Shown: positions 2,766-11,615 of the stretch, piece by piece
Layout: the number at the start of each line of letters is the position of its first letter
How positions within the stretch are numbered: position 1 is the first letter of the stretch
NCBI GenBank assembly: GCA_012729455.1
Contig: JAAYDC010000009.1
Location: forward strand, 44,598-108,597
Reading direction: 5' to 3'
Source: Chloroflexota bacterium
GTDB lineage: Bacteria; Chloroflexota; Anaerolineae; UBA1429
DNA: 64,000 bases
The notes under the pieces: generated by a model
Told to the model about the DNA's origin: nothing
The model's database searches: none
The model's input: the letters and a program-made list of their open reading frames with translations, nothing else
Position numbers and translations under genes: made by a program

Positions 2766-3064
2766 CATCAACACAGAACGGTGTGGATTGCGCCGCTTTA
2801 GCGATTCTGACTATGACGCGGTCAAGCGCCTGAGCGACGACTATCGGCAGGATCCCAGCTATGGCGATGATCACCCTGGCCAGTGTACTGCTGAACCATA
2901 CCATGTCGGTGCGCGATGCCCGGCGCATCGTCAGAGGCACGGGAGAGGGCAATGCCCGCTGCACCCGCATGGACCGGCGCTTGACACCGTGTACCGCTGC
3001 CAAGTAGACTAGCCAAGACAAAAGCGGCGTATAACGCGCCCAACGCTTGTGGAAGCAGGTGTGT
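2766..3064 (+). other. Intergenic stretch with a possible GNAT-like remnant
   Basis: No intact gene is seen. Read from 2788, the first ~30 codons (RRFSDSDYDAVKRLS...) resemble the extreme N-terminus of GNAT acetyltransferases ('iR.f..sDydav..L'), but similarity stops near 2870 and the frame continues as low-quality sequence. A separate 48-codon frame at 2861-3007 is unrecognised. The remnant reading is tentative. The right end holds the promoter of the next gene. Confidence 0.3.
2981..3010 (+). promoter_or_regulatory. Promoter of the methyltransferase gene
   Basis: TTGACA at 2981-2986 (consensus -35) and TAGACT at 3005-3010 are 18 bases apart. A transcript from here would begin about 45 bases before the chosen start codon at 3065. 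This supports the methyltransferase/SNF2 module having its own promoter. Confidence 0.55.
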
Positions 3065-6000
3065 ATGTCATTGAACCTTGAGCAGGGCGTCTGCGGTTTA
3101 CTGAAGGCGATGGCGCGGGGCAATTACGATGCCATGCTCACCCTCTTTTGCCGCGAGCTGAGCTATCCGTGGGCCAATACCCCTGTCTCAACGCGTCATT
3201 GGCCCAAGGCGGCCGTCGATGTCCTGCAAGATGAACCCAAGCTGGTGGCGGCAACCCAGGCTGACGGCAAAACCGGTTTCTGTATCGTGCATGCCCGGCT
3301 GGCACCAGGGAGCCAGTCGTCGCCGCTCTCGCTGGCGGCTGAACGGCAGGTTGTCAATCAGCTCTTGGGCGACTATCCCTTTGGCCTCTATCTCTTTTCC
3401 ACGGCCAGTGATACTCACTGGCACCTGGTCAATGTGCGCTTGGAGCTCGAGTCAGAAGCCTCAGACGCTGACAAGCGGCCTGCCAGGCGCCGTACACTGC
3501 GCCGCATCGCGCTGGGCCCGCACGAGCGCCTGCGTACCGCAACCGAGCGAGTGGCCATGCTCGATCTGGCCAGCATCGGCGACCCTGACCAGGTATCGCC
3601 TCTGGCCGTACAGCAGCGGCACGATGAGGCGTTCGATGTCGAGCAGGTCACCAAGCAGTTCTATGAAGAATATGTGACCGTGTTCCGCCAGCTCGAGGAC
3701 GAGCTCCAGACACAGACGGGCGATCGTACCTGGGCCCACGACTATGCTCTGCAGTTTCACAACCGGCTCATGTTCCTCTGCTATGTGCAGCGCAAGGGCT
3801 GGCTAGGCGACGATCCCGAGTTTCTGACCAAGCTCTGGCAGGCTTATCAAGACACGTCGCAACCGGCTGATACTTTTGTAGAACGATGGCTGCAGGTGCT
3901 CTTTTTCGAGGCCTTTAACCATGGCTTTCAGGCTGGCCGCGCCGACCGCTCCTATCTTCCCGAAGAGATCCGCAACGCTCTGCAGGTTGCGCCCTGGCTG
4001 AATGGCGGTCTGTTCGAGCGCAACGAGCTGGATAGACAGTATGCTTTCAAGGTGACCGATCAGGCCTTTGAGCACAGTCTCAAGCTGCTGAATCACTACA
4101 ATTTCACCGTGGCCGAGGACACGCCGCTCGACCAGGAGGTGGCCGTCGATCCTGAGATGCTCGGCCGGGTCTATGAGAGTCTGGTGAACGTCAGCGATAC
4201 GGACGATGAACGGGGGCAAGCAGGCATCTTTTACACGCCCCGCGTCGAGATCGACCTGATGTGTCGGCTGGCGCTGATCGACTGGCTCTGCAACCACCTC
4301 GGCCGCGAGCGGTTTGAACTGGTCAGCGAGCTGGTCTTTGCCCTGGAGCCCGACGAGCAGGCACAGGCCGATAAGCGCATCTCGAACGAAAACCTCTGGC
4401 CCGATATCCACCGCTTGCTGCAAAGTGTCACCGTGTGCGACCCGGCCTGCGGCTCGGGCTCGTTTCTGGTGGGCGCGCTCAACGTGCTCGACGATCTGCT
4501 GGCCCGCGCGCAGAGGCAGGTGGGCCAGCTCGAGCGCCCCTATGACCGCAAAAAACGCATCGTCGAGCGCAGCCTCTATGGTGTCGATGTAAAAGGCTGG
4601 GCCGTGCGGGTGGCCGAGCTGCGGCTCTGGCTGCAGCTGCTCATCGACACCGAAATCGACGTGAACGAGCTGCGCGTTCAGCCGGTGCTGCCCAACCTCA
4701 GCTTCAAGGTGCGGGTGGGCGACAGCCTGGTGCAGCGCATCGGGAACGTCGATATGGCCCACCTTGGCCGTGGCAGGCTATCAGTACCCCTCAAGGGGCG
4801 CATTACCCGCCTTAAAGCGGCGAAATCCGGTTATTTTTACAACCAGCCCGATGCTATTCTCAACACCCCAGCCAAGCTGCAGCACGAAGAGCTGAGCATC
4901 TTTCGCACCATCATTGATGAAGAGCTGATCCGCATCGACGCCCGCCTGATAGAGCTGCGCCAGAGCCTGACGTCTCAGGCCACCTTCGATGGCATGGCCC
5001 CGGCCGCTGGTACACCCGAAAAGAGACAGATCGAGGCTCAGCAGGCCGAACTGGAAGCGCATCGCACGCAGTTGGCCGCCGCCCGCAACAGCCTGAAGCA
5101 GGCCCAGGATGTGCCCTTTGTGTGGGATATCGCCTTTGTCGAGGTGTTTTCAGGTGAGCGGCAGGGCTTTGATCTGGTGCTGGGCAACCCGCCCTATGTG
5201 CGCCAGGAGAGCATCCGCAACCCGCTGTCTGCCCGCGATGAGGCTGCCGAAAGAGCAGCTGTCGCCGCTTACAAGGCCGCGCTGGCCGATGCGGTCTATG
5301 CCCGCTGGCCCAAGACCTTTGGCGATGGGAGCGGCAAGCAGACGTTCAAGCTCGATGGCCGCAGCGACCTCTACATCTACTTTTATCTGGTGGGGCTGAG
5401 CCTGCTCAACCGGCAGGGCGCCTTTTGCTTTGTCACCTCGAACGCCTGGCTCGACGTGGGCTATGGCGCTGCCCTGCAGCGTTTTTTACTGACCCGCGGG
5501 CTGGTCAGGCTGGTGATCGACAACCAGATCAGGCGCTCGTTCAAAGAGGCCGATGTCAATACTGTCATCACCCTGCTGGGGCCGGCGGTGGATGACCGCC
5601 GTGACCGTGCTGCCAGCCTTGACCACGTGGCACGCTTTGTGATGTTCACTGTGCCCTACGAGCAGGGCCTCTCGGCGGTGCTGTGGCAAGAGGTTGGCGA
5701 GGCCCAAGAGCGCCTTGCCAGGCCCGAGTTTCGCGTGCACCCGCTGATGCAGCGCGACGCGCTGGCGGCCGGCAGCGACCAGGCCAGCCTCTATGCCGGC
5801 GACAAGTGGGGCGGAAAATACCTGCGGGCTCCCGATATCTACTGGGAGATTCTGCGCCGGGCTGGCGACAGGCTGGTGCGCCTGGGCGATGTAGCCGATG
5901 TGCGGCGCGGTATCACGACTGGAGCGAATGAGTTCTTCCAGATAGATGCCCAACAAGCAGATACATGGGGAATAGAAGCCGAGTTCTTGGTTCCGTTCCT

Positions 6001-6685
6001 GTTCTCGCTGAAGGAAGTGAAGGGCTATCAGGTAAAGCCAGAAGGCCTTAAACGTAGGTTGCTCGTATGTCGTGAATCGAAGGCCGAGTTGCGCCTTCAA
6101 AGGAAGGATGGTGTTCTGCGCTATATCGAATGGGGTGAGGAGTCTGGCTATTCGATGCGCCCTTCGGTTCGTGGTCGTAGTCAGTGGTATACCCTGCCAG
6201 ACCAAGAGTCGGCTGACTTTGTGTCAAATCGCTTTCTAGGCGAGCGAGTGGGCTTTCCAGTGATAGACGGAATCGCTGTTTGTGATGTCTTCTTTATTGG
6301 GTCATTCCGTGGAGTCGATGGTGTTTTGGGGACAGCGTTGCTCAACAGCGTGATCTGCTTGATGGTTGCAGAGGTCGTCGCCCGCAAGACCTATGGGACA
6401 GGGGTAGCCTACATGTATGGGCCTGAGATCAGAGGCTTATTGATGCCCAGCCCGTACATAATGACTTCGGTCGGTACTGCGCTACATGAGGCATTCGGGG
6501 CGATGAGACGTCGGCGAATTCTTCCGCTGGAACAGGAACTAGTCCAGTCGGACCGTCAGGCACTTGATGAAGTTGTTCTGGCTGCGCTGGGGCTGCAAGG
6601 TAAATACCGGGCTCTCATCTATGAATCACTTCTCGAGATGGTTCAGGCTCGTCTGGCCAAGGCCAGCAGCCTAGAAAGAATGTAG
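3065..6685 (+). CDS. Eco57I-class adenine-specific DNA methyltransferase with built-in specificity domain
   Basis: A 1206-residue N6-adenine methyltransferase of the type IIG/PglX-like architecture. SAM-binding motif I is DPACGSGSF at 459-467 and catalytic motif IV is NPPY at 708-711; the long spacing between them is usual for Eco57I-like enzymes. Residues 1-180 form a conserved region lacking an obvious PD-(D/E)xK nuclease triad. Residues about 950-1206 are the expected target-recognition region. ATG 3065 is preferred over TTG 3047 because AGGTG precedes it. The next gene supplies an HKD nuclease plus SNF2 motor, so this protein probably provides modification and recognition for a two-gene restriction-like system. 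GC falls sharply from about 5930 onward (see findings). A stand-alone methylase or part of a DISARM/BREX variant are the alternatives. Confidence 0.85.
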   Translation: MSLNLEQGVCGLLKAMARGNYDAMLTLFCRELSYPWANTPVSTRHWPKAAVDVLQDEPKLVAATQADGKTGFCIVHARLAPGSQSSPLSLAAERQVVNQLLGDYPFGLYLFSTASDTHWHLVNVRLELESEASDADKRPARRRTLRRIALGPHERLRTATERVAMLDLASIGDPDQVSPLAVQQRHDEAFDVEQVTKQFYEEYVTVFRQLEDELQTQTGDRTWAHDYALQFHNRLMFLCYVQRKGWLGDDPEFLTKLWQAYQDTSQPADTFVERWLQVLFFEAFNHGFQAGRADRSYLPEEIRNALQVAPWLNGGLFERNELDRQYAFKVTDQAFEHSLKLLNHYNFTVAEDTPLDQEVAVDPEMLGRVYESLVNVSDTDDERGQAGIFYTPRVEIDLMCRLALIDWLCNHLGRERFELVSELVFALEPDEQAQADKRISNENLWPDIHRLLQSVTVCDPACGSGSFLVGALNVLDDLLARAQRQVGQLERPYDRKKRIVERSLYGVDVKGWAVRVAELRLWLQLLIDTEIDVNELRVQPVLPNLSFKVRVGDSLVQRIGNVDMAHLGRGRLSVPLKGRITRLKAAKSGYFYNQPDAILNTPAKLQHEELSIFRTIIDEELIRIDARLIELRQSLTSQATFDGMAPAAGTPEKRQIEAQQAELEAHRTQLAAARNSLKQAQDVPFVWDIAFVEVFSGERQGFDLVLGNPPYVRQESIRNPLSARDEAAERAAVAAYKAALADAVYARWPKTFGDGSGKQTFKLDGRSDLYIYFYLVGLSLLNRQGAFCFVTSNAWLDVGYGAALQRFLLTRGLVRLVIDNQIRRSFKEADVNTVITLLGPAVDDRRDRAASLDHVARFVMFTVPYEQGLSAVLWQEVGEAQERLARPEFRVHPLMQRDALAAGSDQASLYAGDKWGGKYLRAPDIYWEILRRAGDRLVRLGDVADVRRGITTGANEFFQIDAQQADTWGIEAEFLVPFLFSLKEVKGYQVKPEGLKRRLLVCRESKAELRLQRKDGVLRYIEWGEESGYSMRPSVRGRSQWYTLPDQESADFVSNRFLGERVGFPVIDGIAVCDVFFIGSFRGVDGVLGTALLNSVICLMVAEVVARKTYGTGVAYMYGPEIRGLLMPSPYIMTSVGTALHEAFGAMRRRRILPLEQELVQSDRQALDEVVLAALGLQGKYRALIYESLLEMVQARLAKASSLERM

Positions 6686-7020
6686 GCTCATATGCAGTTC
6701 TGGCAGCTAGTGCCGGTGATGGTGATCAATGTTCGGTCCAAGGAGTCCCCTATGTCCGCAAACGTCAGTACAATATCTACTATAGCGAGGTGCCCTGCTA
6801 CCGTGATAGGCTGGCGGTGCCGAGATCATTGACGGTCACAGCGGTGCTGGTGGCCGGCGGCCTCCACCGGGAGGCACGCGCCGCAAGGCACAGGGCCGCC
6901 AGCCTGCGCTGACGGCGACAGAGCGGACGCCCTTGAGCTGTAGTTGCTGGCTGCTTGAGTTCACCTGAAGGCCGGTGAGCCGGCGTTCTATGGCCTTAAT
7001 TGCATGAAAGCGGAGCGAAC
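6686..7020. other. Intergenic region between methyltransferase and PLD-SNF2 gene
   Basis: 335 bases with no credible gene. It contains an inverted pair GGCGGCC/GGCCGCC around 6855-6899 and a second pair AAGGCC (6968-6973) / GGCCTT (6992-6997) just before the next ribosome binding site. No clear promoter was found, although TACAAT/TACTATAG-like boxes occur near 6768-6785. The spacing is unusually long for two genes of one module. Confidence 0.5.
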
Positions 7021-10000
7021 ATGCAACACGATATCATCGATAACCGCACCGAGAAACTGGCCGACCACATCCGCACGATTCTGCCGGGCACGGCGCGGGC
7101 GCGCTTTGCTGTGGGCTACTTTTTCCTCTCCGGCCTCGAGCATGTGGCCGACGTGCTCGACGGCGTATCTGAGCTGCGCCTGCTGATCGGCAACACCACC
7201 AACCGCGAGACGCTCGAGCAGCTCGCCGAGGGCTATCGCCGGCTGGAACGGGTTGAGGTCGAGCTGGACGCGCAGCGCTACACCTCGCGGGTGCGCTCCA
7301 GCCAGGCGGCCGATGCCACCGAGGGCGATATCGCCGACAGCGCGGCTGTGCTCGATCAGACCGATCGTACTGAGCAAATGATCGTCTCGCTGGCCGAGCT
7401 GATCGCACAAGGCAGGATCAAGGTGCGCGTCTACACCAGGGGCAGGCTGCACGCCAAGGCTTATATCTTTGACTATGGCGAGGTGATGAACCTTCAGGGA
7501 GAGATCATCCCGCGGGCGGAGGCGGGCATCGGCATCGTGGGCTCCAGCAACCTCTCGCTGGCCGGCATCAGCAGCAACACCGAGCTCAATGTGCTGGTGC
7601 ACGGCAACGCCAACCATGAGCAACTGGTGAACTGGTTCGACGCGCTGTGGGATGAATCAGAGGACTTTGACGAGCACCTGATGCGTGTGCTGCGGGCGTC
7701 GTGGGCGCTGGCCGAGGTGACGCCCTACGAGATCTACCTGAAGACGCTCTACGAGCTCACCAAAGACGGACTGGATGAGGATGTCGGGCAGCTCTCTCTG
7801 TGGGGCGGCGACATTCAGGAGCAGTTGGCCGATTTCCAACGACACGCCGTGCAGCGGGCGATCCGGATGATCGACCGCCACTCGGGATGCTTTGTGGCCG
7901 ATGTGGTGGGGTTGGGCAAGACCTATATCGGCGCCGCCATCCTCAAGCACTTTGTCGAACGCGATCGGGCTCGGCCATTGATCATCTGCCCGGCGCCGCT
8001 GGTGAGCATGTGGGAGGAATTCAACGAAGATTATGACCTCAATGCCCGGGTGGTCTCGATGAGCATGTTGACCGAGGACGAGGTGATGGGGTCTGAATGG
8101 ATGCTCACCGATCCCTTCTACCGCAACCGCGATCTGGTGTTGATCGACGAGAGCCACAACTTTCGCCACACCAATAACCAGCGCTACCGCGTGCTGTCAT
8201 CCTACCTCGCCACACACGAGCGGCGATGCGTGCTGCTTACCGCCACGCCGCGCAACAGTTCACTATGGGATATCCACAACCAGATTCGGCTGTTTCACCC
8301 CGAAGAGGTGACCGGGCTGCCCATCGATCCCCCGAACCTGCGCGAGTTTTTCGGTTGTGTCGAGCGCAACGAGCGCCGGCTGCCGGAGCTCCTCTCGCAT
8401 TTGCTCATCCGTCGAACGCGCCAGCACGTCCTGCGCTGGTATGGATATGATGACGAGACCGATCAGCCGGTGGACCCCGCGCACTTTGAGCCCTATCGAG
8501 CGGGGCGCAGACGGGCCTACATCAAGGTGGCTGGCGGCAAGCAGTACTTTCCCGGGCGAGAGCTGAACACGGTGCGGTACAGCATTGAAGATACCTATGC
8601 TGGGCTCTATGACAAGATTAAAGACCTGCTGGATGGCGACGGCGACGCCCTGCGCTATGCGCGCTACGGCCTGCATGAGTTTGTCAAGCCGGGCAAGCAG
8701 CGGGTCGATCCCTACCACTCGCTGAGCACCGCCGGGCGCAACCTGCGCGGACTGATGCGGGTGATGCTGTTCAAGCGGCTGGAGTCCAGCGTGCAGGCCT
8801 TTCGCCTGACCGTTAACCGCATGCTCGATAGCCATTGCGCCTTTCTTCAGGCCCTCGACCATGGCATTGTGGCGGTCGGCGATAATGCCAGCGACCTGCT
8901 GCGAGGGACTGGGGAACTCACCGACCGTGAACTGATCAAGGCGCTCGAGCAGGTGACCGGTGAGTATAACATCGATGATTTCCATGCAGAGGCGCTGCGC
9001 GATGCCATTGCCTATGACATCGCGATCCTGGAACGGCTGCTCGAGCTGACTCTCCCAATCGGCCCGCAAGAGGACGACAAGCTCCAGACCCTCTTGGGCA
9101 TGCTCCGTCAGCCGCAGTTCCAGACCAAGTGCCTGATCTTTACGCAATTTGCCGACACGGCCGATTATCTCTACGAGCATGTGAGTGTCGAATACGCCGA
9201 CAGCGAGGTTGTGTCATCGGCCAGCAACAGCAAAGGCGAGATCGTGGCGCGCTTTGCCCCCAAAGCCAATCGCTCCGCAGACCGGTTGCGCAGCACAGGC
9301 GCAGAGATTCGCCTGCTGGTCACCACCGATGTGCTCTCTGAAGGGTTGAACCTGCAAGACTGCAACATCATCATCAACTATGATCTGCACTGGAACCCGG
9401 TGCGTTTGATCCAGCGGCTGGGCCGAATCGACCGGATCGGCTCCGAGCACGACACCATCATCGCGCACAACTTTTTACCAGAGCTGGGCATTGAAGAGCA
9501 TCTCGGACTGCATCAGACCCTGCGCAACCGCATCGCAGAGATCCATCGAACGATAGGCGAGGATGCCGCTATCCTCGATCCTGACGAGCAGCTCAACGAA
9601 GATGCAATGTACGCGATCTATGACGCTGGTGATCTGGGGCCTTTAGAAGAGGCAGAAGATACAGATACCTACGTTGATCTGCACGATGCAGAGGAGACGA
9701 TTCGCCAGTTGCGCGAGCAGCAGCCCGATCTGTACCAACGCATCGTCGCCATGCCCAATGGTGTGCGTTGCGGGCGAAGCTGCGATGACGGCTACACCTA
9801 TGTCTACTGCCGCGCAGGTGACTATTACCGGCTGGTGCTGCTCGATGGCAACGGCACCGAGCTGACACGGCAGACTCCAGCGGTGCTCAACTGGCTCAAG
9901 TGCGCTCCAGACGAGCCGGCCGTCGCTCTGCCGGCGGGCCACAATGAGCGGGTTATGGACTTCAAGCGTGACTTTACCTACGAGGTAAAACGTCGAGCAT

Positions 10001-10332
10001 CCGAACGAACACGCGCTCCGCGGAGCACAAGGGCTCAGACGTACGTTCTGGATGAGATGCGGCGCCTTTACAGTGAGACGCGAAATGAGCAATTTAGGCA
10101 ATCCATCGACCTGTTGGTGAGAACTTTCAGTCGGCCCGTGGTTCGCATAGCCGTGCGCCAAGCGCTCAACCGCCTGTGGCGCGATCAGGTCGTGGGCCTC
10201 GAGCTGGTGCGGGCGCTGAGGCAGATCCACAACCAGTTCCGTCTGGACATGGACAGCCACCCGAATAAGGCCGATGATGGCCAGGATGACCTGCCGATCA
10301 TCGTGTGTTCTGAGGGCGGTTCAGCTCAGTGA
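7021..10332 (+). CDS. PLD (HKD) nuclease - SNF2 helicase/translocase fusion
   Basis: An 1103-residue ATP-dependent DNA-acting protein. The N-terminal phospholipase-D domain has the catalytic HxKxxxxD signature HAKAYIFD (H144, K146, D151), followed by GSSNLSLAG, the usual second PLD element. The SNF2 motor follows: GLGKT Walker A (K300), DESH Walker B (376-379), TATPRNS motif III, and QRLGRIDRIG motif VI (798-807). A single HKD motif implies dimerisation for catalysis, as in BfiI/NgoAVII-type nucleases. The ATG at 7021 has GGAG six bases upstream; an in-frame TTG lies at 7000. Being next to the Eco57I-class methyltransferase suggests this is the restriction arm. The exact family is unassigned here; a DrmD-like DISARM helicase is an alternative. 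Confidence 0.85.
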   Translation: MQHDIIDNRTEKLADHIRTILPGTARARFAVGYFFLSGLEHVADVLDGVSELRLLIGNTTNRETLEQLAEGYRRLERVEVELDAQRYTSRVRSSQAADATEGDIADSAAVLDQTDRTEQMIVSLAELIAQGRIKVRVYTRGRLHAKAYIFDYGEVMNLQGEIIPRAEAGIGIVGSSNLSLAGISSNTELNVLVHGNANHEQLVNWFDALWDESEDFDEHLMRVLRASWALAEVTPYEIYLKTLYELTKDGLDEDVGQLSLWGGDIQEQLADFQRHAVQRAIRMIDRHSGCFVADVVGLGKTYIGAAILKHFVERDRARPLIICPAPLVSMWEEFNEDYDLNARVVSMSMLTEDEVMGSEWMLTDPFYRNRDLVLIDESHNFRHTNNQRYRVLSSYLATHERRCVLLTATPRNSSLWDIHNQIRLFHPEEVTGLPIDPPNLREFFGCVERNERRLPELLSHLLIRRTRQHVLRWYGYDDETDQPVDPAHFEPYRAGRRRAYIKVAGGKQYFPGRELNTVRYSIEDTYAGLYDKIKDLLDGDGDALRYARYGLHEFVKPGKQRVDPYHSLSTAGRNLRGLMRVMLFKRLESSVQAFRLTVNRMLDSHCAFLQALDHGIVAVGDNASDLLRGTGELTDRELIKALEQVTGEYNIDDFHAEALRDAIAYDIAILERLLELTLPIGPQEDDKLQTLLGMLRQPQFQTKCLIFTQFADTADYLYEHVSVEYADSEVVSSASNSKGEIVARFAPKANRSADRLRSTGAEIRLLVTTDVLSEGLNLQDCNIIINYDLHWNPVRLIQRLGRIDRIGSEHDTIIAHNFLPELGIEEHLGLHQTLRNRIAEIHRTIGEDAAILDPDEQLNEDAMYAIYDAGDLGPLEEAEDTDTYVDLHDAEETIRQLREQQPDLYQRIVAMPNGVRCGRSCDDGYTYVYCRAGDYYRLVLLDGNGTELTRQTPAVLNWLKCAPDEPAVALPAGHNERVMDFKRDFTYEVKRRASERTRAPRSTRAQTYVLDEMRRLYSETRNEQFRQSIDLLVRTFSRPVVRIAVRQALNRLWRDQVVGLELVRALRQIHNQFRLDMDSHPNKADDGQDDLPIIVCSEGGSAQ

Positions 10333-10551: not shown

Positions 10552-11265
10552 TCAGTGTCTTTCAGCCCACCAGTTCAGCACGGACTTGCCCGTCCAGAAC
10601 ATGACCACGATGAGCCCGATACCGGTGAAAGAGATCGCCATGACAATGCCGAATTTATAGATCTTGTCGCGAGAGCCGCTCTTATCCACAAAGGTCACAT
10701 TCCAGCCGGGCATGGCGATGATATACAGGGCCACGACCGCTGCGAGACCCAGCCACATAAAGCCCATCCACCACTTGGTAAGGATAAAGAACAGGAGAGG
10801 AACCAGCCAAAGCACAAAGCCGATGAGAAAGCAGATAAGGTAGGCGGTAAATGTACTGGTGCCGGCCGCCTTTTGCGGGTTGGGCGCTGCTGCCTTTGGC
10901 GCGTCAGACTCTGCCGGCTGCGTGCTTGCGCCCTTGGTGTTGGCCATACGATTGAGCGTCGCATAGATGGCCGCCTCCTGTACGCCCGGGTCGGGGTCCT
11001 CGAGCATACCGCGAAGCTCCCTGGTGGTGGCGTCGTCGCCGCAGGGGCCCAACGCCTGCGCGGCAGCCGTGCGCACCTCCTTTACCGGGTCGCGCAGCGC
11101 CGCCAGCAACCCTGGCGCCGCGCTCACGTCGCCCAACTTTTCCAGGGCCTCCGCCGCCGCCTGGCGTACAGCTGCATCCGGCGAAGACTGCAGGAGTTCG
11201 ATCAGACCCGTTACATTCCCAGCCGCTGCCAGCGCCGCAACCTCACTATCCGCAGTCTGCTCCAT
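10552..11265 (-). CDS. HEAT-repeat membrane protein
   Basis: Predicted 237-residue protein. The N-terminal ~110 residues are three to four HEAT/PBS-lyase-type helical repeats (e.g. 'VRQAAAEALEKLGD', 'VRTAAAQALGPCGD', 'VQEAAIYATLNRM'), which usually bind other proteins. A proline/alanine linker follows, then three or four hydrophobic segments that anchor it in the membrane. The start at 11265 is fixed by a perfect AGGAGG (11271-11276) upstream; a longer frame begins at 11346 but has no ribosome site. A decayed copy of its 5' end lies directly upstream at 11377-11615. Function unknown; it may be a membrane scaffold. Confidence 0.75.
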   Translation of the reverse strand: MEQTADSEVAALAAAGNVTGLIELLQSSPDAAVRQAAAEALEKLGDVSAAPGLLAALRDPVKEVRTAAAQALGPCGDDATTRELRGMLEDPDPGVQEAAIYATLNRMANTKGASTQPAESDAPKAAAPNPQKAAGTSTFTAYLICFLIGFVLWLVPLLFFILTKWWMGFMWLGLAAVVALYIIAMPGWNVTFVDKSGSRDKIYKFGIVMAISFTGIGLIVVMFWTGKSVLNWWAERH

Positions 11266-11376
11266 GTTAACCTCCTGGTTACCTATACTAAAGTACAGTC
11301 GGAGCGTTACGTGCAGAGATGTGACAGACGGTGCGGCAGAGATCAACTGCCCACGCGGCGGCCATGCGCTTGCCCT

Positions 11377-11615
11377 ATACCGGGCCGCGCAGCGCCGCCA
11401 ACAATCCTGGCTCTGTGCTCAAGCCGCCCAGCTTGCCCAGAGCCGCCGCCTGGCGACCAGCCGCGCCCGGCGAATACCGCAGGAGTTCGATCAGACCTGT
11501 TGCGTCCCCAGCCGCTGCCCACTGCAACCTCACTGCCCGCAGTTAACTCTATTTTAACCTCATATTTTCAAACACAAAAGTACAGTCAGAGTGTCGCTTG
11601 CAGGGATGCGGCAGA
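11377..11615 (-). pseudogene. Decayed tandem copy of the 5' part of the HEAT gene
   Basis: The sequence matches 11083-11325 (leader plus first ~60 codons of the HEAT gene) at an offset of 287-294 bases, with several small indels. Shared blocks include GCAGGAGTTCGATCAGACC and GTACAGTC. The equivalent of the start codon has changed from ATG to ATA (11550-11552, minus strand), the Shine-Dalgarno has lost its consensus, and the frame shifts after about eight codons. It therefore cannot make the protein. Confidence 0.8.

Follow-up and report, generated by a model that had tools for sequence, protein, structure and literature searches.

Several bacterial restriction and defence systems bring together a DNA methyltransferase, a phospholipase D (PLD)-type nuclease and a helicase-like motor. 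The present work concerns two neighbouring genes predicted to combine these functions in a stretch of 64,000 nucleotides from Chloroflexota bacterium (assembly GCA_012729455.1, contig JAAYDC010000009.1, positions 44,598 to 108,597 of the forward strand; below called the window, from whose first letter all coordinates are counted). One gene encodes an Eco57I-type methyltransferase, the other a fusion of a PLD nuclease carrying an HKD motif to an SNF2 motor. CglI and NgoAVII possess a methyltransferase, a PLD nuclease and a helicase-like ATPase, as does the locus in the window (PMC4267653, PMC5737866), but their nuclease and helicase are encoded by separate genes, whereas both are fused in one open reading frame (ORF) here; R2H2 CglI has a single active site (PMC5737866). 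The Type ISP enzymes LlaGI and LlaBIII also unite motor, nuclease, methyltransferase and recognition domain in one system and have a similar methyltransferase fold, but they are one polypeptide (PMC5737866), in contrast to the two genes, 335 bp apart, and the PLD nuclease of the window. The Type IV enzyme SauUSI is a single chain of PLD nuclease and superfamily 2 (SF2) motor that dimerizes via its nuclease domains and moves along DNA (PMC7913695; its enzymatic parts also PMC12707154). It has its own SRA reader for modified cytosine and no methyltransferase, whereas the motor in the window has a methyltransferase partner and gave no Pfam match to SRA or another reader domain at E ≤ 1.

Fusions of an HKD nuclease to an SNF2 motor have already been published. 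In the Type-2 BREX-related, DUF499-centred loci such a fusion occurs with an N6-methyltransferase (PMC12839542, PMC7641849), for instance in a COG1743-DUF499-SNF2-nuclease operon (PMC7641849). The published loci have a core of DUF499 ATPase and DUF3780, whereas no DUF499 adjoins the pair in the window, and their methyltransferase is given as COG1743. The CxC/PbeABCD systems contain an HKD endonuclease fused to an SF2 helicase, with a methylase in some loci, but are centred on an ABC ATPase and DndE (PMC10853773), and the PbeA profile matches weakly (3.1e-11). Other helicase-nuclease groupings have been described as well (PMC2292703, PMC12458937). The initial annotation had suspected a compact, poorly described type of defence. 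The restriction-like pair and the conserved neighbourhood of its genes agree with this, but the fusion as such is represented by the PADLOC profile C3a139 "HKD+Snf2" (PDLC01075), which matches the motor at 3.5e-78 (262 bits; best stretch 3-374, 372 of 948 profile positions), and the published fusions stand in loci with further core genes. The profile library gives no cut-off for C3a139 and names neither a methyltransferase partner nor a represented system. Profiles of Class 1 DISARM (DrmD, DrmMI) also score the SNF2 helicase and the methyltransferase of the window, DrmD with 163 of 610 bits and thus under the NCBIfam cut-off, as is the PLD anti-phage protein NF042964 (153.8 of 1100 bits). A two-gene system of an Eco57I-type methyltransferase and an HKD-SNF2 fusion, with a chimeric methyltransferase, was not found described in the open-access literature searched. 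The features of the locus, all on the plus strand, are as follows.

3065..6685, +, DNA methyltransferase gene, 1206 aa, predicted N6-adenine type (Eco57I/CamA/BseCI-like), intact; ATG at 3065, stop ends at 6685
3065..3514, +, front domain, residues 1-150, diverging in step with the motor; predicted to be an adapter and lacking a conserved nuclease motif
4439..4465, +, S-adenosylmethionine (SAM) motif I DPACGSGSF, residues 459-467 (sequence motif)
5186..5197, +, catalytic motif IV NPPY, residues 708-711 (sequence motif)
5942..6559, +, predicted target-recognition domain, residues about 960-1165, hypervariable among relatives; boundaries approximate
6686..7020, +, gap of 335 bp; most relatives have a longer one here, with variable cargo genes
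7021..10332, +, PLD nuclease-SNF2 motor fusion gene, 1103 aa, intact; ATG at 7021, stop ends at 10332, in-frame TTG at 7000 a possible start
7450..7473, +, single HKD motif HAKAYIFD, HxK(x4)D, H144/K146/D151 (sequence motif)
7783..9630, +, SNF2 motor region, residues about 255-870 (Pfam, fold search, motifs)
7900..7920, +, Walker A, residues 294-300 (sequence motif)
8146..8157, +, DESH, residues 376-379 (sequence motif)
9412..9435, +, motif VI, residues 798-805 (sequence motif)
9673..10329, +, C-terminal domain of the motor, residues about 885-1103

The two genes belong together well beyond this genome. Within the best 80 of 253 stretches in named genomes, counting all six-frame ORFs, 51 loci have a methyltransferase upstream of the motor in the same orientation, among them 43 of the 48 with at least 4 kb and 37 of the 39 with at least 7 kb of upstream sequence; L053, L075, L080, L089 and L091 lack it despite at least 4 kb. 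The reverse count started from methyltransferase matches at E ≤ 1e-60 in a sample of the class (37 genes in 36 genomes), and 17 of the 20 with at least 7 kb downstream are followed by a motor on the same strand. The methyltransferase and the PLD-SNF2 motor are a conserved cassette in many unrelated bacteria: the titles of the best 80 stretches name Chloroflexi, cyanobacteria, delta-proteobacteria, Verrucomicrobia, Poribacteria, Nitrospirae, Cloacimonadota, an acidobacterium and others. The objection considered in the initial annotation, that homologues might rarely be adjacent, fails, since the genes are conserved neighbours.

On the evidence of sequence comparison, the methyltransferase of this cassette is a modular chimera, whose front end varies with the motor while the rest is exchanged. 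In a first set of 37 complete pairs (630 comparisons of 36 loci), the identity of residues 1-150 correlated with motor identity (Spearman 0.73), as opposed to -0.14 to 0.22 for six other segments, and label permutation reached the front-domain value in none of 500 trials. Segments of 40 residues gave coefficients of 0.50-0.65 up to residue 160, 0.19 at 161-200 and -0.09 to 0.19 beyond, except for 0.36 in the sparsely aligned stretch 561-600, which places the exchange boundary near residue 160, inside a coding gene. In a second set of eight further loci and the window (36 comparisons), the front domain reached 0.89, whereas the other segments stayed between -0.26 and 0.05. The methyltransferase bodies fall into three families with 18, 17 and 10 of 45 members; between these families the front domain still tracks the motor (0.68, 621 comparisons), whereas bodies and recognition domains of the three families do not track motor identity. 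In the close pairs L081/L084 and L042/L050 the recognition region has been replaced while the motor stayed; the latter pair shares residues 1-400 at 96-99% identity and the motors at 93-99%, yet differs throughout from about residue 400 onwards. If proximity on the DNA alone were the cause, the recognition region should track the motor better than residues 1-150, which are more distant from the motor gene.

The front domain is also nearly confined to partners of one group of motors. A profile built from these same methyltransferases detects it in 50 of 55 methyltransferase ORFs adjoining close motors (second contig copies account for six of the 55); the remaining five start at profile position 168 or later. 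Of 18 methyltransferase ORFs adjoining distant motors, only one has it (26 bits). Where the stretch contains no full motor, 7 of 17 carry the domain, and all seven have less than 3.3 kb of downstream sequence, L117 ending in a motor fragment. A database search with residues 1-160 returned 11 proteins, all with an Eco57I methyltransferase domain, five of which possess the C-terminal family PF12950 instead of PF22837. Residues 7-150 are predicted to fold compactly into helices and six strands (mean predicted local distance difference test score, pLDDT, of the model 81). At this place MmeI, BsaXI and DrdV possess additional N-terminal sequence, their alignments beginning after or inside the front domain; this additional sequence is their nuclease domain. 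The initial annotation saw no PD-(D/E)xK motif in the methyltransferase, and rightly so: EPK at 57 and DGK at 67 are present in the window copy, but no conserved D...(D/E)xK set occurs in residues 7-156 over 49 relatives, position 69 being a gap in 46 of them. The front domain is predicted to couple methyltransferase and motor, and it may be a former nuclease domain, now dead, that was turned into an adapter.

Some observations weigh against this interpretation. The second set is close to the first in three of its eight loci, whose motors are 84-97.5% identical to motors of that first set, and the pairwise comparisons between loci are non-independent. Inside one body family the helical part tracks the motor too (0.60; front domain 0.79), and of 39 splits in the motor tree (42 loci) the front domain shares 13, the helical part 11, the body 10 and the core and the recognition region 2 each. 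Partial correlation gave no clear docking site on the motor, the best value being 0.30 for motor residues 101-200, and three of the 20 methyltransferases with room have no motor downstream (G217, G227, G299). From the correlation within the family and the tree splits it follows that bodies stay with the motor in the short term and are exchanged in the long term.

The space between the two genes varies as well. Among the 44 loci that contain both genes, its length lies between -1 and 8534 bp and is at least 400 bp in 39; it is shorter in L107 (-1 bp), L105 (2 bp), L061, L071 and L076, which the window resembles. These lengths and the cargo lists rest on an ORF selection that keeps the longest of overlapping ORFs. 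The description as a two-gene module is therefore correct for the core, but most relatives have the long gap, mostly with variable cargo. Most of the longer gaps hold ORFs in the direction of the pair. We scanned 93 of 144 candidate ORFs, which belong to 36 of the 44 loci where a methyltransferase was seen (minus-strand ORFs, one motor fragment and loci without a seen methyltransferase were excluded), and 57 Pfam families matched at E ≤ 1e-4. Among the 25 families listed of these 57, AAA_21/AbiEii-like, Schlafen AlbA_2 and PIN have five members each, spore-photoproduct-lyase-like, AAA_15 and nucleotidyltransferase four each, Uma2 and TIR three each and DUF3644 two, while RloB, YhcG, XisH and XisI occur singly. 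The cargo of L084 is an OLD-type ATPase with TOPRIM and that of L043 a nucleotidyltransferase-HEPN pair. Even close relatives differ: L081 and L084, with motors 94% identical, carry a nucleotidyltransferase-cluster protein and the OLD protein, respectively, and L076 has no ORF where L085 (motors 97% identical) has a PIN-cluster pair. Immune genes within restriction-modification operons are a known theme (HEPN, PIN-GNAT-EVE; PMC3710099, PMC7641849), but no description of a cargo slot between these two genes was found in the open-access literature searched. The slot would hold back-up immune genes in relatives and is empty in the window, where comparison of the six-frame translation of the 335 bp with the loci revealed nothing recognisable; an open stretch of about 74 codons is present.

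We consider it probable that the cassette is an ATP-dependent restriction-modification system, in which the methyltransferase would mark self DNA and guide the motor, the front domain would dock the motor and the motor would cut unmarked DNA. As in such systems generally, methyltransferase, nuclease and ATPase motifs are intact and the components are encoded together across genomes. The methyltransferase would read its site through the predicted recognition domain and protect self DNA by an N6-adenine mark. N6-adenine methylation at a defined site is likely, since the enzyme is similar to CamA and BseCI in its core and recognition region and to HsdM, BrxX and LlaGI in its helical and core parts. 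The motor, without site specificity of its own, would dock on the front domain and be loaded at unmethylated sites by the methyltransferase. Most likely it is the methyltransferase that supplies the address, as no reader was matched in the motor and the motor remains unchanged when the recognition region changes. Two motor chains would then pair into one cutting site, as in SauUSI and CglI. This pairing is likely, given one HKD motif per chain, the dimerization of SauUSI via its nuclease domains and the single active site of R2H2 CglI. Cutting of DNA without the mark would follow ATP-driven movement, a step carried over from SauUSI, CglI and Type ISP. Whether all this amounts to a distinct type of ATP-dependent restriction-modification seems to us evenly balanced: such a type would have one specificity-blind PLD-SNF2 effector, aimed by interchangeable methyltransferases of three body families behind one dead-nuclease adapter that fits only this effector clade, and its locus would double as a slot for back-up immune genes.

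The main rival explanation accepts restriction as proposed but regards the co-divergence of front domain and motor as neutral: the conserved ends of the locus would recombine, and the middle, body and cargo, would be swapped without any docking. Body and cargo do turn over together while both ends are kept, and the tree splits differ little between front domain and body. However, the exchange boundary near residue 160 lies within a coding gene and the front-domain profile is nearly restricted to the partners of one motor clade, both of which a functional joint explains more simply. We therefore hold this explanation to be unlikely, yet worth keeping in mind. It is improbable that the motor alone is a modification-dependent (Type IV) nuclease and the methyltransferase an independent neighbour. 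SauUSI, a PLD-SF2 fusion, works in this way without a methyltransferase, but it does so with a reader, of which none was matched in the motor, and the pairing counts as well as the front domain following the motor speak against independence.

A degraded or partial DISARM, BREX or DUF499-centred system would account for the scores of the motor against DrmD and PADLOC BrxH and those of the methyltransferase against DrmMI and PglX. All NCBIfam scores remain far under cut-off (DrmD as given above, PglX best model 47 of 900 bits), and no such partner occurs among the 25 listed of 117 families matched by 37 large flanking ORFs of relatives, which makes this explanation very improbable. Membership in BREX was dropped on the PglX score, in DISARM on the DrmD score and the absence of drmA, drmB and drmC matches at E ≤ 1e-15 among the 39 other ORFs of the window, and in the DUF499-centred group since DUF499 is absent from the own genome and, of nine other pair-bearing genomes, absent in three and not beside the pair in six. 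Least probable of all is a complete Type IIG restriction enzyme with the motor as an accessory, since its best points, the PADLOC profiles REase_MTase_IIG as best matches (5.7e-47) and the position of the front domain at the extra N-terminal sequence of MmeI, BsaXI and DrdV, are opposed by the missing conserved D...(D/E)xK set, on which Type IIG membership was also dropped.

If the proposed restriction-modification mechanism is true, a restriction motor that has no recognition domain obtains its address through one exchangeable partner, and the target site could be changed by swapping one module. The natural swaps would then show where the joint lies, near residue 160, and make the coupling of site recognition to cutting in ATP-dependent restriction directly testable. 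Moreover, the cassette provides a definition for annotating many "helicase-related protein" and "Eco57I methylase" pairs in the databases, and it points to a cargo slot where new immune genes can be sought.

Relatives of the motor made up 7219 of 7999 scored candidates at E ≤ 1e-3 and those of the methyltransferase 2855 of 7991. The nearest motor relatives are Chloroflexota records, and close relatives are patchily distributed in the genome samples. Scoring in these samples, as in the class sample used for the reverse count, was limited to the top two candidates of each genome, so that the counts are lower bounds. A match at 50% identity or more, some being fragments, was found in at least 17 of 396 genomes of the class and a match at E ≤ 1e-180 in at least 6 of 400 of the phylum (own genome included in both); two other groups gave at least 3 of 338 and at least 6 of 345, with the centre genome counted each time. 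One of 14 other genomes of the family has a close motor (G005, 90% identity; the contig begins within the motor gene). Such a patchy spread would be usual for horizontally moving defence genes. Phage records gave partial matches only (three records, 41-44% coverage).

Distant motors (about 29-40% identity) also adjoin methyltransferases, several of them in reversed order, motor then methyltransferase, namely in L114, L135, L141, L144, L145 and L146, and some distant pairs are located on plasmids. Those of Halorussus aquaticus (L151) and Thermococcus profundus (L152) carry a methyltransferase, one or more intervening genes (AbiEii-type in Thermococcus) and a distant PLD-SNF2 relative. In the genetically tractable Synechocystis sp. 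PCC 6803, plasmid pSYSX (L153, 7992-15425) harbours a distant cousin of the pair, with genes for a helicase-related protein, a VapC-type toxin and a DNA methyltransferase, followed downstream by ThiF, E2 and multiubiquitin. This methyltransferase is 27% and 24% identical to that of the window in two stretches. A pSYSX methyltransferase has a known motif; literature searches on the Synechocystis pSYSX methyltransferase gave nothing.

Concerning the genes themselves, coordinates and residue numbers of the initial annotation were correct, and so was its view of a methyltransferase with SAM motif I and NPPY next to an intact HKD site fused to a complete SNF2 motor; both genes are intact. The methyltransferase matches the Pfam families Eco57I (9.6e-25) and MmeI_Mtase (8.2e-12), and the motor Helicase_C (2.6e-17), PLDc_2 (4.2e-11) and SNF2-rel (1e-10); with such E-values the assignments are not due to chance. 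The methyltransferase motifs are invariant or nearly so in 49 aligned relatives. In 43 relatives of the motor, H144, K146, GSSN (residues 174-177), DESH and the core residues of Walker A and motif VI are invariant and D151 is conserved in at least 90%. Fold searches, which covered mainly residues 250-875 of the motor and 186-1173 of the methyltransferase, showed resemblance of the motor part to SNF2 ATPases; they listed nothing for the PLD nuclease, the C-terminal domain and the front domain, parts that they barely test. Motor or methyltransferase genes are split or interrupted in the relatives L097/L150, L098 and L167, through either decay or assembly error.

In the flanks, no drmA/drmB, pglZ or brx genes had been noticed, and a PADLOC scan of the 39 other ORFs of the window likewise gave no match at E ≤ 1e-15. 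Judged by eye, the flanking genes concern transport, oxidoreductases, sugar and housekeeping. Among 15 genomes of the family, own included, the upstream flanking gene has relatives in two others (40-45% identity) and the downstream one in none. Upstream of the pair lies one further feature.

2981..3010, +, promoter-like match TTGACA-18-TAGACT, 10 of 12 positions, preceding the methyltransferase gene (consensus match only)

The region contains five promoter-like matches, against a mean of 2.2 in shuffles. As one of them precedes the methyltransferase gene and none occurs on the plus strand of the 335-bp gap before the motor gene, a single transcript of both genes is plausible. Downstream of the motor gene, at 11333-11521 on the minus strand, there is a short interrupted copy with 65% identity to residues 39-103 and one TAG, adjoining a gene at 10555-11346 that appears repeat-rich by eye. 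Farther on, the minus strand at 19050-39850 carries a series of long ORFs of up to 1493 aa, all on this one strand, with a strong AT skew over part of it.

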